Below, one piece after another: positions 12,826 through 19,049 of a stretch of DNA of 64,000 bases. The notes below the pieces were generated by a model. It had not been told where the DNA came from. It saw nothing but the letters and a program-made list of their open reading frames with translations, and did not search any database. The stretch is from Pseudomonas yamanorum. Lineage in GTDB: Bacteria > Pseudomonadota > Gammaproteobacteria > Pseudomonadales > Pseudomonadaceae. Location: NCBI RefSeq assembly GCF_013386765.1, contig NZ_JACARE010000018.1, forward strand, positions 190,440 through 254,439, read 5' to 3'. Positions within the stretch are counted from its first letter, which is position 1. Every line of letters starts with the position of its first letter. The position numbers and the translations under genes were made by a program.

Positions 12826-14130
12826 TCAGAACGCCAGGGTCCATTGGCCGGTCAGGCCCTGGTTGCGACTGCTGCTGGCGAACTCTGCGGTGTAGGCCAG
12901 GCCCACGGTGTGTCGTTTCGACAGCGCCAGGTCGAGCCCGGTGTGAATGGCCACGCTGTCCCGGTCCAGGGAGGCGCCCTCAATCGTGAAGTTGCTGTTG
13001 AAGCCAGGCCTTTTTACCCAGGCGGAGGATTGGCGAACGCGGCTGCCCACATCGCCGTAGAGGTGTTTCCAGCTCGTGCTCAAGTGGGGTTTGAGGACCA
13101 TTTGACCGTCCAGGGTGTAGGCGCTGGCCAGGCGAACGCCGAAGGTGCTGCTGAGATTTTGCTGGGTCTGTTTGTCGACGTTCAGGGCGTTGATGCCGCC
13201 TTTTTCCTGGTAACGGCCGCGGTGATAACGCTGGTAGCCCAGGCCGCCGAAGGGTTCGGCACTGAAGCCGTCGGTGCCCAGCTGGTAGCCCAGCTCGGCG
13301 AAGGTATTCTGGCTTTGGGCGCTGTACTTGCCACTGAGTTGTTCCCGGTAATCCACCAGATTGAAGTCGACGCTGCGCTTGTTCTCGCCGGTGTGGCTGC
13401 TATGGATTGCTCCCAGGCGCAGCGCCAGAGGCCCGTCCTGACGCACTGCGTAACCGCCCAGGTGCCAGCTGTCCAGCGTGCCGTTGAAGCGGTTGGCACT
13501 CAGGTCGCTGGCGGATTTGGCGCCCAGCACGCCGACGCGCCAGGCGTGGTCCACCGCCCAGTCGGTGCCCAGCACCAGGCCCTGGGTGTGTTGCCGCAAG
13601 CCGAGGCCGCCGTGCTGCCCGTAGAGCTTGCCGCTGTTTTCCAGGCCCTGTAGCCAGACGCGTGGGGCACCGCCGGTGTTGTGTGTGTCACTCAACTGAC
13701 GCATCGCTGAAAGCAGGCTGTTGTTCAGGGCTTTCTGGCTGTTCTGGGTGGCGGCAGCCAGGTTGGCATTCTGGCTGCCTGCCAGTTGCTCAAGGAACGC
13801 ACCCAGGCGCCCGGGCTGCAAGTTGCCCAGCTCCCGGGCAAAATTTTCAACTTCGTACTCTTCCCACTCGTTCAGCTCGCCTGATGCCAGCAGCGTATCC
13901 AGGGCGTGATCCAGCACACGGGCGATGCTTTGGCCATTGTGGGTGGTAGCGTGGTCGGCGAAGTGAAAGTCATGGCTGGGCTCCGGATGAGCAGGGTAGC
14001 CGCCGACGGGTGTAGGGGTTATCCACTCACTGTCGGGCTCGATATCCCCGCGTGCCAAGGCGTGTTGGACGCTGGCAAGACCCAGGGTGAGGGTGATGGC
14101 GAACGCGATTTTTTTCTTTATGAACGGCAT
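12826..14130 (-). CDS. Autotransporter beta-barrel protein with almost no passenger
   Basis: The 434-residue protein has a signal peptide (about 1-26, cut after HALA), a short linker region (about 27-160, with the LEQLAGSQNANL helix) and an outer-membrane beta-barrel domain (about 160-434). The barrel ends in aromatic WTLAF, as the BAM machinery requires. Barrel motifs such as GYQRYHRGRY, SSTFGVRLA and ASLDRDS closely match those in the next gene, so the two are paralogues. A classical autotransporter would have a long secreted passenger; here only about 130 residues precede the barrel. It may display a short peptide, act as an esterase-free porin-like barrel, or be a passenger-deleted relic that is still intact. 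Confidence 0.85.
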   Translation of the reverse strand: MPFIKKKIAFAITLTLGLASVQHALARGDIEPDSEWITPTPVGGYPAHPEPSHDFHFADHATTHNGQSIARVLDHALDTLLASGELNEWEEYEVENFARELGNLQPGRLGAFLEQLAGSQNANLAAATQNSQKALNNSLLSAMRQLSDTHNTGGAPRVWLQGLENSGKLYGQHGGLGLRQHTQGLVLGTDWAVDHAWRVGVLGAKSASDLSANRFNGTLDSWHLGGYAVRQDGPLALRLGAIHSSHTGENKRSVDFNLVDYREQLSGKYSAQSQNTFAELGYQLGTDGFSAEPFGGLGYQRYHRGRYQEKGGINALNVDKQTQQNLSSTFGVRLASAYTLDGQMVLKPHLSTSWKHLYGDVGSRVRQSSAWVKRPGFNSNFTIEGASLDRDSVAIHTGLDLALSKRHTVGLAYTAEFASSSRNQGLTGQWTLAF

Positions 14131-14240: not shown

Positions 14241-17213
14241 TTAAAAACTCATCTGCCATTGCCCGATCAGCCCGTGATTGCGGCTGTTACTGCCTATTTC
14301 TCCGGTGTAGCCCACACCTAAGGTATGGCGGGCCGACAGGCCTACGTCCAGGCCGGCCTCCAGCAGCAGGCTGTCGCGGTCCAGGGCGCTGCCTTCGACA
14401 TTGAACGCGGTGCCGCCCATCAGGAAGGCCTGGCGCGTGCTGCTGTCGACATCGCCGTAGGTGTGTTTCCAGCCGGCGCTGACCCGTGGCGTGAGGCTGA
14501 TGCCATTGTCCAGTTGGCTCAGGTGCGCCAGGCGCAGGCCGAAGGTACTGCTGAAATTATCCTGGGTTTGCCCGTCGACATGCAGGGCCGCGGCACCGCC
14601 TTTTTCGTTGTAGCTGTCGCGGTGGTAGCGCTGGTAGCCGAGGTTGGCGAACGGTTCGGCACTCAGGCGCCCGCTGCCCATGGCGTAACCCAGTTCGGCG
14701 AAGGCTTGCTGGCTGTTGGCGTCGTAGTCACCTTTGGGCCGGTCGCTGAAACCGTCGAAGGCTACGGTGCGTTTGCTGTCGCCCTGATGCCCGCTGTAGG
14801 CGGCGCCCAGGCGCAAGGCCAGCGAGCCGCTCTGGCGCATGGCGTAGACGCCGGCGTGCCAGCTGTCGACGCTGCCGTCGACGCCCGTGGTGTCCAGGTC
14901 GGTCTTCGAGTAACCGCCCAGCACACCTACGCGCCAGTCCGAATCGAGTGCCCAGTCGGCACCCAGCACGCTGCCTTTGGTGCGCTGGGTCAGGCCGTTG
15001 CTGCCATGGTCGCCGTCGAGCTTGCCGTAGCTGCCGATGCCTTGCAGCCACAGGCGGCCCCGGGCATTGGGGTCATTGAGGTTGCGCGCCTCGGCGGGTA
15101 CGCCGGTGGCGGCCAATACCGGCGTGTCTTTTTGATCGAGGCCCACCAGCAATCCTGCGCCTCCACCCAGTTGATGCATGGCGCTCAGCATGCTGTTGCC
15201 CACCTGGGCGCTGGCGCCAAGGGTGGCGCTGGTCAGGTTGGCAGTGCTGCTGCCCGCCAGTTGTTCGATGGCAGCACCGGCGCTGCTGTTGGTGGTGTTG
15301 AGCAGGGCGTTATACAGCGCGTTGTTCTTGCCCAGGCTCGCCAGGGCGTTGGCGGCGCTGGTGCCGTTGCCGGTGTTGGCGAATTGATTGAAGGCCACAT
15401 CGTTGCGGGTATAGGTCAGGCCGACCTGGGTGGGGCTGTAATCCAGGGTCGGCGTGAGGAAGGCATAGTCGCTGGTGACCTTGCCGAACGTGCCATTGAT
15501 ACTGCCGGCTTGCAGCACCGTGTAGTGGCTCTGCCACGGGTAGGTGCCGCTGCCGGGATTGATCGCCAGGGTCGCGCCATTCAGGTAGGCGGTGCCACCG
15601 ACCTGCACCGGGGCGCTGCTGCCGTCGGCGTTCACGCCATAGGCCAGGGTCGAGCCGCCGGTCATGGTCAGGTCGCGGGTGATGCTGGCGGTGCCGAGTG
15701 CGGTATTGGTCTGCAAGGTGCCTTTGACCAACAGGCTGCCGACGCTGCCGCCACCGGCATAAATACCGCCTTCATCGACGGTCAGGTTGCCGGCGATCCC
15801 GCCCTGGTTGATCAGCTTGGCGCCGCTGAAAATCTCGCCGCCGTCGCTGAAATCGCCGCTGCCGGTGAGGGTCCAGGTGCCTTGCTTGACGTCCAGCCAT
15901 TCGAAGTTGCGGCTGTCGCCAAAACTGCCGCCGGCGGCGTCGTCCATGGTCAGGCGGTCGTAGCCCGTGCCGCCGTCCACCACGCCGACGAAGCGGCTGC
16001 CACGGAGCAGGGTCAGCGTGTCATCGCCGCCGCCCAGATCCAGGGCCAGGCCGTTGCTGCCGCTGATGGTGCCTGCGTTGACCACCGCGTCGGCAAACTC
16101 GCCGACGAACTTCACGCCGAAGCCGTTCAGGCCCTGGATGGTGCCATGGTTGATCAGGGTGGTGGCTGCCAGTCCCGGGCCGTCGCTGCCGTCGTCCACC
16201 AGGATCGCGTTGTTGGCACCGCTTACCAATGCACCGACGCCGTTGAACACGTAGCCACCGCCGAGGGCGATGCCTTCGCTGCCGTTGGCAAAGCCGTTCT
16301 TGTCCACGCCACCGGCGCCCACGCCCTGGATGATGCCGTAGTTTTCGATGTGGGCGATTTTGTCGATGTCCACGCCATCGCCGTCGCCATCGGGTTGCAG
16401 CCCGGAATAGGCGCCGGTGATGGTGCCGTGGTTGATCACCGTGCCGTCGCCGTCGGAACCAAAGCCCGAGCCGTTGCGGCCGATCACCGTGCCGTAGTTG
16501 GTCAGCGTGGCGCCCAGGTCGGTGGTGATGCCGTGGCGCCCGCCGGAAATCAGGCCGTAGTTGGTCACCGTCACGCCGGTGGCGGAGTCGATGTCGACGC
16601 CGTCGAACTTGTCGTCCCGGGAGAAGGTGTCGCCGGTGGAAATCTCACCGTAGTTAGTGATGGTGGCGTTGGCGCCGGTCTTCATGCCGTCGCTGGCGTC
16701 GCCGCGAATCAACCCGCCCAGGCGGTTGATGATGGTGGTCGTGACATTGGGGCTGCGGATCGCATCCAGGTCCAGCCCTTGGCCGGTGGCGGAGCGAATG
16801 GTGCCGCTGTTGTCGATCAACAGGCTGCCGCTGGCGAAATTGCTGTCGATGCGCAGCGCGTCGTTGGCGCCCTGGATCACGCCGCCGGCGCGGTTGTAGA
16901 TGCTGTAATTGCGCGTGCCGGTGAGGTCGCCGTTGCTGTCGATGGCGCGGCCGCCGGTGGAGATGATGCTGCCGGAGTTGTCGATCACTACGCCATTGCC
17001 GCTGGTGCTGCCAGCCAAGGTGACGGCCACTTTATTGGTGGTGACGCTACCGGGTGCCGAGATTGTCAGCGAGTCACTGCCGCCCAGGGTGAGCGCGGTG
17101 GTGGTCGGGGTGTCGATCTGCAATGTCTTGGGTGGAGCGGGTGCTGCGTCAGCCAAACTGCTGCCCACCAGCAGGCCGAGGGTGAGTGCGAGGCGCTGGG
17201 GTGACGGAGGCAT
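14241..17213 (-). CDS. Autotransporter with repetitive beta-helix passenger
   Basis: The 990-residue protein has a signal peptide (about 1-23), a beta-helix passenger (about 25-480) built of degenerate repeats rich in N-[HY]-G-x-I and G-x-G-x-D (for example NYGEIS, NHGTITG, NHGTIQG), an autotransporter-associated region with a tall strand series (about 480-620), and a C-terminal barrel (about 720-990) ending WQMSF. No protease or lipase catalytic triad stands out, so adhesin or biofilm function is more likely than enzyme. It lies upstream of its passenger-poor paralogue on the same strand with 110 bases between them; joint transcription is plausible. Confidence 0.88.
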   Translation of the reverse strand: MPPSPQRLALTLGLLVGSSLADAAPAPPKTLQIDTPTTTALTLGGSDSLTISAPGSVTTNKVAVTLAGSTSGNGVVIDNSGSIISTGGRAIDSNGDLTGTRNYSIYNRAGGVIQGANDALRIDSNFASGSLLIDNSGTIRSATGQGLDLDAIRSPNVTTTIINRLGGLIRGDASDGMKTGANATITNYGEISTGDTFSRDDKFDGVDIDSATGVTVTNYGLISGGRHGITTDLGATLTNYGTVIGRNGSGFGSDGDGTVINHGTITGAYSGLQPDGDGDGVDIDKIAHIENYGIIQGVGAGGVDKNGFANGSEGIALGGGYVFNGVGALVSGANNAILVDDGSDGPGLAATTLINHGTIQGLNGFGVKFVGEFADAVVNAGTISGSNGLALDLGGGDDTLTLLRGSRFVGVVDGGTGYDRLTMDDAAGGSFGDSRNFEWLDVKQGTWTLTGSGDFSDGGEIFSGAKLINQGGIAGNLTVDEGGIYAGGGSVGSLLVKGTLQTNTALGTASITRDLTMTGGSTLAYGVNADGSSAPVQVGGTAYLNGATLAINPGSGTYPWQSHYTVLQAGSINGTFGKVTSDYAFLTPTLDYSPTQVGLTYTRNDVAFNQFANTGNGTSAANALASLGKNNALYNALLNTTNSSAGAAIEQLAGSSTANLTSATLGASAQVGNSMLSAMHQLGGGAGLLVGLDQKDTPVLAATGVPAEARNLNDPNARGRLWLQGIGSYGKLDGDHGSNGLTQRTKGSVLGADWALDSDWRVGVLGGYSKTDLDTTGVDGSVDSWHAGVYAMRQSGSLALRLGAAYSGHQGDSKRTVAFDGFSDRPKGDYDANSQQAFAELGYAMGSGRLSAEPFANLGYQRYHRDSYNEKGGAAALHVDGQTQDNFSSTFGLRLAHLSQLDNGISLTPRVSAGWKHTYGDVDSSTRQAFLMGGTAFNVEGSALDRDSLLLEAGLDVGLSARHTLGVGYTGEIGSNSRNHGLIGQWQMSF

Positions 17214-17302: not shown

Positions 17303-17441
17303 TGCATTTTATTGCGTTGTAGGGCCATGACTTCATCAGGATATGCATTTTAATGCATAAATATAATCTGCGACAAAGCGGTTTATGCACTATATTGCAT
17401 TTTTGAGTGACCCAATTCCCCTATAGGTGCATTAAATTGCA
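17303..17441 (+). promoter_or_regulatory. Array of four phased TGCA-N6-TGCA operators before hipA
   Basis: Four 14-base palindromes with the form TGCA-N6-TGCA lie at 17303-17316 (last base G), 17344-17357, 17386-17399 and 17428-17441. Start-to-start distances are 41, 42 and 42 bases, close to four helical turns, so bound dimers would face the same side. A perfect -10 box TATAAT is at 17362-17367, placing the second palindrome over the -35/-10 spacer. The fourth palindrome ends one base before the hipA ATG. This looks like an autoregulatory site for the adjacent helix-turn-helix antitoxin. Confidence 0.75.
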
Positions 17442-17442
17442 G

Positions 17443-18777
17443 ATGGCGACCACCTACCGATTGATGCTTCAGATATTTGCCAACGGCCGTTGGCATGACG
17501 CTGTGCGATTGGAATTTACTGAGCCGCAAAAGGGCTTCGACGGGCCTTGTCAGTTTGCTTATAGGCAGGACTATCTCGTCGAAAATCTTGAGGATATTCA
17601 GTTACCTTTTTCCAAAGCCGTTAGTGCGCGAGTGCCTTTGGATTGGGATGTTAAATTTCTGAAGACGGCCCCTGCCTTTCTACACGACATCGCACCTGCG
17701 GGTGCGGCAAAGCGATTTCTCATGGAGCATGTCGGTCGAGAGAAGCCTGACTATCTAAGTGCCGATTTATTTTTGCTGGGCCGCAGTACGCCAGCACCGA
17801 TTGGCAATATGCGAATCAAGGAGTCAGTCGAGGTAGTGGATGACAGGCCTCCCATCGGGTTTCCTCGCAACGAGGTCGTTATACGAGACCAGAATTTCCT
17901 GGAGTATGCCTATGAACAAGGCGCGGCTATTGGCGGTGCAAGTGGGGCGGGCGGGGAAGCACCTAAGTTATTGATGGCTGAAGATGCAGAAGGGCTCCTG
18001 TATCCGGATGCCATATTGGTTGATGCGGATGTATCTCAACACTGGTTTATCAAGTTTGCCCGCAATAACGCGACCCAGAATGACCAAGACATATTGAGAA
18101 GCGAGTTTCACTACTACAAAGCACTCCAGGTACTGGGAATCGAAACGGTTGCCGCCCAGGGGCTTGCATTGGAAGAGGCCGCCAAGCCTAGCCTGTGGAT
18201 GCACCGCTTTGATCGCAAGGTTACTGATCAAGGAGTCGAGCGTCTTGCTATTGAGTCGATCTACTCCCTGGCGAATGAGGTCATCCCTGGTGCCAGAATG
18301 GACCATATGGAGGTGGTCCGGTTGTTGGTCAACCAATGGAACAGTGCGGGTCAGGGCGACCAAACAGACGAACTGGTGGCGGAATATCTGCGCCGGGACC
18401 TATTGAATAAAATTTTGGGCAACTCAGACAATCATGGACGTAACACTTCGATTATCCGGGGGGAGGACTCGTTGCGACTGGCACCGATTTATGATTTGGC
18501 ACCCATGGTAATGGACGCTGAAGGTATTCCCCGAACAACCAAGTGGCCAAAAAACTTAGAAGTGGGCGGTCAGATAGATTGGCGCGGGGTGTGCGATGCG
18601 TTGGTTGGCATTGTGGATCCCGAACAAGCCTTTGAGCGGTTGCGCAAAGATGCCGATCATTTGCGTGCGTTGCCGGATATTTTGGCGGGCAGTGGGCTGC
18701 CGTCAGTCACTATGAACCATCGTCACATCCCCCTCGGGAAGCTTGACCAGCGATTACAGGAGTGGGGGTTGAGATGA
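17443..18777 (+). CDS. HipA-family serine/threonine kinase toxin
   Basis: The 444-residue protein has a HipA-type N-terminal lobe and a kinase-like C-terminal lobe. Visible motifs are the glycine-rich loop GGASGAGGEAPK near residue 168, HWFIKFAR (ATP-contact lysine), the catalytic loop GNSDNHGRN near 325, and the metal-binding APIYDLAP near 347. HipA of E. coli phosphorylates glutamyl-tRNA synthetase and drives persistence; the target here is unknown. An upstream GTG (17407) keeps the same frame. ATG 17443 is preferred because it follows the last operator directly, although the only Shine-Dalgarno-like bases (AGG) lie 15 bases away inside that operator. The antitoxin gene follows with an ATGA overlap, the reverse of the E. 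coli hipBA order. Confidence 0.88.
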   Translation: MATTYRLMLQIFANGRWHDAVRLEFTEPQKGFDGPCQFAYRQDYLVENLEDIQLPFSKAVSARVPLDWDVKFLKTAPAFLHDIAPAGAAKRFLMEHVGREKPDYLSADLFLLGRSTPAPIGNMRIKESVEVVDDRPPIGFPRNEVVIRDQNFLEYAYEQGAAIGGASGAGGEAPKLLMAEDAEGLLYPDAILVDADVSQHWFIKFARNNATQNDQDILRSEFHYYKALQVLGIETVAAQGLALEEAAKPSLWMHRFDRKVTDQGVERLAIESIYSLANEVIPGARMDHMEVVRLLVNQWNSAGQGDQTDELVAEYLRRDLLNKILGNSDNHGRNTSIIRGEDSLRLAPIYDLAPMVMDAEGIPRTTKWPKNLEVGGQIDWRGVCDALVGIVDPEQAFERLRKDADHLRALPDILAGSGLPSVTMNHRHIPLGKLDQRLQEWGLR

Positions 18778-19049
18778 CGATTACCATTGATGCTCGTGCC
18801 CTTTTAATTGAGAGCATTGAGCAAGGGTTAGCGGATGGTTCGCTTGAGATAGGCGAAGCCGTGCGTCGCTTGCGAAACGAAGTCACCGGTCTTCACCAAA
18901 GCCAATTCGCCAAGATGTGCAAAATTTCAGTGCGCACCTTGGTACATATCGAACATGGCGAGGGCAATCAGACGCTCAAATCGTTGAATGCGGTATTCAG
19001 GCCGTTTGGGTTGAAGATGGGGGTGGTGAAGGTCCGTAGAAATATGTAG
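18774..19049 (+). CDS. HipB-like helix-turn-helix antitoxin
   Basis: The 91-residue protein carries an XRE-type helix-turn-helix (about 33-75; GLHQSQFAKMCKISVRTLVH, HGEGNQTLKSL) and a short C-terminal strand (FGLKMGVVKVR), the HipB layout. It should neutralise the upstream kinase and repress the pair from the four TGCA-N6-TGCA sites. Its ATG overlaps the toxin stop (ATGA) and is preceded by AGGAG and GGGGG, so translation is coupled to the toxin. Toxin-first order means the antitoxin depends on toxin translation, which is unusual for this family. Confidence 0.85.
   Translation: MTITIDARALLIESIEQGLADGSLEIGEAVRRLRNEVTGLHQSQFAKMCKISVRTLVHIEHGEGNQTLKSLNAVFRPFGLKMGVVKVRRNM

Follow-up and report, generated by a model that had tools for sequence, protein, structure and literature searches.

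An evenly spaced palindrome array before a toxin-first HipA/HipB operon in Pseudomonas

The gene pair and its upstream palindromes

The 64,000-nucleotide stretch of Pseudomonas yamanorum DNA analysed here (the window; contig NZ_JACARE010000018.1, positions 190,440 to 254,439) contains a two-gene operon in which a HipA-family kinase toxin gene precedes the gene of a HipB-like helix-turn-helix (HTH) antitoxin, with four palindromes in a row in front of it. To judge from the comparisons and predicted folds given below, this pair is very probably a HipA-family toxin with a HipB-like antitoxin, the latter repressing the operon from an array of sites on the same face of the DNA. The features are listed with their positions in the window.

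17303..17316, no strand: operator 1, TGCATTTTATTGCG, one mismatch to TGCA-N6-TGCA; orthologues have counterparts near -139 relative to their toxin start
17344..17357, no strand: operator 2, TGCATTTTAATGCA, exact TGCA-N6-TGCA
17362..17367, + strand: TATAAT between operators 2 and 3, probably incidental; exact in 1 of 87 loci
17386..17399, no strand: operator 3, TGCACTATATTGCA, exact TGCA-N6-TGCA; the most conserved of the sites
17391..17396, + strand: likely -10 box TATATT within operator 3, the conserved TATANT of orthologues
17428..17441, no strand: operator 4, TGCATTAAATTGCA, exact TGCA-N6-TGCA; 1 base short of the toxin ATG (17443)
17443..18777, + strand: HipA-family kinase toxin gene, 444 amino acids (Pfam HipA_C, predicted fold)
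18758..18769, + strand: strong Shine-Dalgarno-like stretch of the antitoxin (AGGAG..GGGGG), -9.1 kcal/mol versus -3.3 for the toxin
18774..19049, + strand: HipB-like antitoxin gene, 91 amino acids (HTH_3, predicted fold); ATGA overlap with the toxin stop
18942..18944, + strand: codon of antitoxin V57, the proposed specificity residue (covariation with operator type)

The toxin scores above the cut-off of Pfam HipA_C (1.8e-26). HipA structures head both the Foldseek and the VIA-align lists for its model (pLDDT 90), the best match in the Protein Data Bank (PDB) being HipA 3tpd (Z 26.6, rmsd 3.6, 368 residues aligned), which spans residues 5-444. Residue D329 aligns with HipA D309, which we take to be the catalytic Asp; D329 is conserved in 90% or more of 44 aligned rows and D351 in all 44, and we assume catalytic and metal-binding roles for these two residues. 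Domain, fold matches and aligned Asp together place the protein among the HipA-fold Ser/Thr kinases, and it is presumably toxic. The antitoxin is above the cut-off of HTH_3 (2.3e-05); the HipB chains 8ezt and 4pu7 (both Z 9.1) lead the matches to its model (pLDDT 88.5), tied with other XRE proteins, so that an adjacent gene for a HipB-like HTH protein is present. Its helix 53-61 presumably corresponds to the recognition helix of HipB. Folds were used because the PDB sequence search was nearly empty, with no toxin match at 0.01 and a single antitoxin match, at 0.059.

The pair differs from canonical hipBA in having the toxin gene first and TGCA-N6-TGCA instead of TATCC operators. It is not of the YjjJ/HipH type, since the toxin reaches 49.7 bits against a cut-off of 401 for NCBIfam NF007297 and lies in a two-gene operon rather than a monocistronic one, nor of the HipBST type, as there are two genes instead of three and the model matches the whole of HipA, whereas the HipBST kinase lacks N-subdomain-1. 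The antitoxin also falls short of the Y4mF type (TIGR03070, 39 bits versus 71.65). The reversed gene order with an HTH antitoxin agrees with HipE (hipEB), the family that forms clade IX of the Hip tree. The same genome carries four further HipA_C genes (L170-L173), each preceded by an ORF (open reading frame) that by eye resembles an HTH protein.

An earlier sequence-only reading of this DNA had described four TGCA-N6-TGCA palindromes recurring at 41, 42 and 42 bases, the last of them touching the hipA start codon. The recurrence is as claimed, since a pattern scan of the window places the operator starts 41, 42 and 42 bp apart. Three of the palindromes are exact (starting at 17344, 17386 and 17428), but the first (17303) has one mismatch, and the last ends at 17441, one base before the ATG at 17443. 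The same reading was right that the toxin gene comes first and that the antitoxin start overlaps the toxin stop, the ORFs 17443-18777 and 18774-19049 sharing an ATGA.

The single motif is not rare in the window, where exact TGCA-N6-TGCA sites number 4 against 2.3 expected; the signal is therefore the array and not the single site. When the 230-bp intergenic stretch was shuffled 20,000 times with its dinucleotides preserved, and sites with at most one mismatch were chained at 41 or 42 bp, a two-site chain arose in 4 shuffles and a three-site chain in 0, and the real stretch holds a four-site chain. Across the genome (7.1 Mb), the only site pairs 41 or 42 bp apart were the three neighbouring pairs of this array, in a search of exact sites with a TGCG ending permitted for the first site.

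Conservation of the period and change of the operator letters

Orthologues were drawn from 57 relatives, 398 genus members, named genomes and 78 stretches fetched for full-length genus matches. Toxin matches at E 1e-3 occur in 179 of the 398 genus members, distant HipAs and fragments included, and in the named genomes 31 of 32 related loci were from Pseudomonas, with one Caulobacter match at 32%. The toxin match was strong in 146 of the 161 loci (15 weak or partial ones were dropped); omission of the partial L079 left 145, and that of ten identical upstreams left a non-redundant set of 135. Partial toxin matches, e.g. those of G352, G083 contig 2 and G189, lie outside the locus set.

Alignment of orthologous upstreams, the check that the sequence-only reading had proposed, reveals a conserved array: three or four sites are present in 128 of the 135 upstreams (four in 62, three in 66), and the other seven have two sites (2 loci), a single site (2) or no site (3). 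Chains for these counts, and for the spacing-change and spacer analyses, were restricted to spacings of 40-43. The period was also counted over all pairs of the motif core GCA..TGC, with outer bases free and no spacing limits. In the 135 loci, 309 of the 346 pairs at lags 20-60 lie at 41 or 42 (135 and 174, respectively). Lags 40, 43, 44 and 45 together account for 6 pairs; lags 31-32 and 51-52, which are 10 bp off the main lag, account for 26, perhaps through overlapping half-sites, and the longer lags cluster at the multiples 82-84 and 124-125.

The DNA between the sites has changed freely. Among 31 loci of equal spacing the spacers are 28.5% identical, near the random value, and the sites 83.5%; the sites were chosen by motif, hence the spacer figure is the informative one. 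Within the chains, at least 58 spacing changes can be placed on the toxin tree, nearly all of them between 41 and 42, and 61 of 62 loci have 41 or 42 as their third interval, counted from the 3' end. An even spacing would also be expected if a 42-bp unit had been duplicated in tandem and the array were now a functionless relic. This explanation is very improbable, since spacers are near-random between loci, switches between 41 and 42 are frequent where nearby lags are rare, and the spacing outlives changes of the site letters. The period is instead maintained by selection, as these comparisons indicate, with the DNA between the sites left free, and the geometry of the array itself seems to matter. 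A constant spacing between drifting spacers also strengthens the idea of the sequence-only reading that repressor would bind along one face.

The site letters are not the same throughout the family. Clades without TGCA sites bear other palindromes in the same places, namely GGCA-N6-TGCC, C[AG]GCA-N6-TGC[CT]G or GCGCA-N6-TGCGC, so that loss of the array is ruled out for most orthologues without TGCA sites. An operator type, named after the outer base, was assigned to 130 of the 135 loci, the other 5 having fewer than two sites. In all 130 it matches residue 57 of the antitoxin: T with V, I or A (94 loci), G with R (23), A/G with Y (11) and C with S (2). No other antitoxin column accounts for all of the variation in operator type, the runner-up reaching 92%. 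The T type tolerates C, as the outer base of its half-sites is T in 586 of 686 and C in 96. Residue 57 is V in the window antitoxin, lies in helix 53-61 and aligns with S43 of HipB.

Several relatives from farther afield agree with this pairing. L163, from another genus and with R57, has GGCA-type sites, its antitoxin having been looked at before its upstream with no written prediction. L207 (R57) carries CGGTA..TACCG, with G at three of the four outer places; L208 and L223, on Pseudomonas plasmids and with Y57, have C[AG]G-type sites, and L192 (A57) has TGCA-type sites.

Other observations weigh against residue 57 as a simple key to the letters. The operator types were defined with the residue pattern already in view, only 4 type changes occur on the tree, the split of the two G clades hangs on a node with support 11, and the statistics are modest. 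S57 pairs with C in two loci alone: L164 has S57 and mixed A/T/C outer bases, and other S57 relatives carry GAGCA-like or mixed sites instead of GCGCA. Besides, V57 pairs with mixed letters in L188-L190, N57 with T in L191, and A57 with CCCAT-like or unclear sites, none of them TGCA, in L196 and in several alphaproteobacterial plasmid relatives. A one-residue code for all relatives is thus ruled out. Residue 57 appears to be a main determinant of specificity within the near family, and other residues must presumably count at greater distance.

Since the operator type follows a residue of the recognition helix, the sites are very probably read by the antitoxin; binding of the antitoxin to the array is the part of our interpretation about which we are most confident. 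The sequence-only reading had likewise taken the palindromes as operators of the downstream antitoxin, which is supported by the conserved array, by the covariation with residue 57 and by the lack of an array at three toxin genes without an antitoxin match in the following 590 bases. It has to be weighed against the idea that some other host DNA-binding protein, such as a global regulator, uses the sites. To this we give hardly any credence, because the letters covary with the recognition helix of the antitoxin, the site pair occurs at this locus alone in the genome, no site was found at the three copies without an antitoxin match, and distant relatives carry different letters.

The toxins without an antitoxin match belong to a single clade. 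No antitoxin match was found in 4 of the 146 loci (L156, L158, L159 and L160), whose toxins are orthologues at about 49% identity. L158, L159 and L160, from two genomes, have no operator site upstream, and the 591-594 bases after the toxin gene hold no antitoxin match; L156 was removed from this group, as its contig ends 68 bases past the toxin gene, and it has one poor site. Several Pseudomonas genomes (G083, G234, G411, G362, G080 and G156) carry partial toxin copies with internal stops, which suggests repeated decay of the module.

Probable promoter, translation and proposed autoregulation

A TATANT box lies in the penultimate operator of 71 of the 94 T-type loci, in the last operator of 16 others and in neither in 7. 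Most letters of this box belong to the operator motif itself, only the second and third being free, so these are the telling ones: they read AT in the penultimate site of all 61 T-type loci with four sites, and in the last, second and first sites of 3, 2 and 15 of them, respectively. The -10 box of the window is thus likely to lie inside operator 3. From its position we infer a transcript start near 17403, which would put operator 4 about 25-38 bases downstream, and operator 1 is about 75-90 bp upstream of the likely box. It counts against this assignment that the T-type promoter showed no conserved -35 box. In the GGCA clade, by eye, the -10 box seems to fall in the spacer that separates the last two operators, the -35 being the TTGCCT of the penultimate one. 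The TATAAT at 17362-17367, to which the sequence-only reading had drawn attention, is present between two sites but is not conserved. It was rejected as the promoter, because it is exact in 1 of 87 aligned loci, that of the window itself, and the conserved box is inside the penultimate operator. A generic promoter scan was not used, since it gave two weak sites against a mean of 0.7 in shuffles, neither of them at the conserved box. In L012 and L143 the operator with TATATT is the last one; in L143 it lies some ten bases before an ATG, and the transcript may be almost leaderless.

The two genes differ in their ribosome sites. With the first in-frame ATG past the last operator taken as the toxin start, pairing with the anti-Shine-Dalgarno sequence has a median of -3.3 for the toxin (115 loci) and -7.4 for the antitoxin (113 loci), and it is weaker for the toxin in 91 of the 96 loci having both values. 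The weakness of the toxin ribosome site, which the sequence-only reading had found unclear apart from bases inside the last operator, is general among orthologues. In 113 of the 135 loci the last bases of the toxin gene are ATGA. Such an overlap makes it possible that the antitoxin dose depends on toxin translation, as had been suggested, but the antitoxin has a strong Shine-Dalgarno-like stretch of its own. The latter signal partly coincides with the codons of a conserved Glu-Trp-Gly and so may not be selected for translation alone. A weak site for the toxin and a strong one for the antitoxin would keep the antitoxin ahead despite its second place.

Because the last palindrome lies right before the start codon, and in many orthologues its right half together with GGTG is, by eye, Shine-Dalgarno-like, this site could also act in RNA, as a hairpin hiding the toxin ribosome site. 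We consider this highly improbable. Shuffling does not weaken the fold of the predicted leader (17403-17480; z 0.49, with 138 of 200 shuffles equalling or surpassing it), the operator is not a separate hairpin in the best structure of the leader, and upstream sites that the predicted transcript does not include have these letters too.

The interpretation that we favour, and regard as quite probable, is negative autoregulation of a toxin-first HipA/HipB operon through a cooperative array on one DNA face. Antitoxin dimers, probably with toxin bound as HipA2HipB2, would occupy the three or four palindromes. DNA has 10.5 bp per helical turn, so that centres 41-42 bp apart are about four turns from each other and all dimers would be on the same face. 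Neighbouring dimers would touch, probably through the toxin, making the array cooperative, and contacts such as those of E. coli would turn it into a short filament over the promoter and start region. As the penultimate site would cover the -10 box, and the last one the region from transcription start to toxin start codon, a filled array would shut the promoter. With the ribosome sites described above, the antitoxin would be made in excess although its gene is second; should its level drop, the array would empty and the operon be expressed again.

A same-face spacing could also serve independent, non-cooperative binding. Under that alternative the sites are still antitoxin operators, each bound by its own dimer, and the four-turn spacing places the dimers opposite RNA polymerase or tunes the geometry of the promoter. 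The site number does vary (three or four), and site 4 is absent in one clade; moreover, the authors of the Legionella HipBST study raise intermediate occupancy on three evenly spaced sites (PMC10653801). On the other hand, promoter-like elements seem by eye to differ among clades with the spacing constant, and the third interval, counted from the 3' end, keeps its length in 61 of 62 loci even though operator 1 is so far upstream of the -10 box. Independent binding is therefore unlikely, and cooperation between neighbours on one face is the probable arrangement. Whether toxin-toxin contacts set the period is a more doubtful matter, on which we lean slightly to the negative. In its fullest form, which we put forward tentatively, the 41-42 bp period would be a structural ruler, HipA-HipB polymerising on one face into a filament of three or four units through such contacts. 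If this were true, the promoter itself would store and count toxin and, the period being set by the toxin, evolution may rewrite operator letters and residue 57 but not the period.

Related systems, distant relatives and neighbouring genes

Among the nearest known parallels is hipBA of E. coli K-12, which likewise has a HipA-fold kinase, an HTH antitoxin and four palindromic operators before the operon, and in which HipB binds cooperatively with HipA as co-repressor (PMC3920265). Unlike the window, its antitoxin gene is first and its operators are TATCC-N8-GGATA. As the sequence-only reading had said, they are also spaced differently: they start at -134, -106, -67 and -39, at uneven intervals of 28, 39 and 28 bp, whereas the array of the window is even.

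The sequence-only reading had over-read the toxin-first order as distinctive, since toxin-first hipA genes have been described in subclades of clades VI and VII and in the HipE family (Gerdes 2021, PMC8262856). HipE and the reversed hipAB modules resemble the pair of the window in having the toxin gene before the HTH antitoxin gene, with N-subdomain-1 present; the available part of their description gives no operators, unlike the array found here (PMC8262856). Legionella HipBST has three conserved, evenly spaced operators with 53-bp gaps, bound by the HTH protein in gel shifts, and thus shares several even, conserved operators with the window; it differs in its three genes, the HTH gene being first, and in its spacing, and the portion of the paper at hand describes no change of operator letters with the spacing kept, unlike in the family studied here (PMC10653801). 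Inverted repeats in several copies are also on record for Caulobacter hipBA1 and hipBA2, where the antitoxin is first by the order of the gene names and intervals are not given in the part available (PMC7029023). In the literature, mostly without subscription papers, we found no phased operators of toxin-first hipA, no period kept across changing letters and no residue-57 code. Reversed hipAB order, multiple HipB operators and even HipBST operators were already known; the toxin-first array, the letter-independent period and the residue-57 code are, as far as we found, new.

With L164 as query, relatives elsewhere in the order were detected in 34 of 390 genomes at E 1e-40 (its own genome counted); with L165, relatives in the phylum were detected in 14 of 398 genomes. 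Others are on 126 plasmid records, all below 60% identity. A phage origin was rejected, as the phage collection gave no match at E 1e-20. We examined 42 distant loci, leaving out L166, L184-L187 and L197-L202 as partial or as repeats of loci in the set. In 40 of the 42 an HTH-like ORF starts no more than 40 bases upstream or 25 bases downstream of the toxin stop (L175 and L183 are the exceptions), and 15 of 16 annotated plasmid stretches have an annotated HTH gene at that place, none being listed for L213.

The letters of distant sites range from GAGCA..TGCTC to TACAA..TTGTA and GGCTATTATAATAGCC. The spacing was assessed free of motif, by pairing similar 16-bp palindromes over all lags between 18 and 69 and taking the best lag of each locus. 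This lag is 41 or 42 in 23 of the 42 loci, and 43 or 44 in six more (L165, L219, L196, L215, L216 and L222; 44 in four of them). Controls give 41-42 in 9 of 210 shuffled upstreams and in 7 of 210 stretches within toxin genes (16 of 420 together). Applied to E. coli, the method returns the spacings 67, 28 and 39, and for the four HipA genes of the P. yamanorum genome that follow their antitoxin gene 41-42 never comes out as best (41 being second in L173). The reach of the rule is reduced by the 13 of the 42 loci whose best lag falls outside 41-44. In addition, the distant loci are not independent, as several are close relatives and L188 and L190 share one pair, and the best pair is not always a convincing operator, e.g. 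in L175. For six alphaproteobacterial plasmids the best lags are 42 once, 44 three times, 33 and 21.

Higher-order repression complexes of HipA and HipB bear on entry into dormancy, and E. coli, which has the best-known array, spaces its sites unevenly. With more than 100 arrays of one geometry and several operator alphabets, recognition (residue 57 and the outer base) could be separated from geometry (the period) by swaps. The spacing rule could also be used to find the operators of a little-studied, plasmid-borne, toxin-first family.

Divergent from hipA, and across the common 230-bp intergenic stretch, lies the gene of a 990-residue autotransporter (14241-17213, - strand). As it shares this stretch, the array could affect the autotransporter too. 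Directly downstream of the autotransporter gene is an ORF (12826-14130, - strand) whose translation by eye resembles the C-terminal part of this autotransporter, with a very short N-terminal part.
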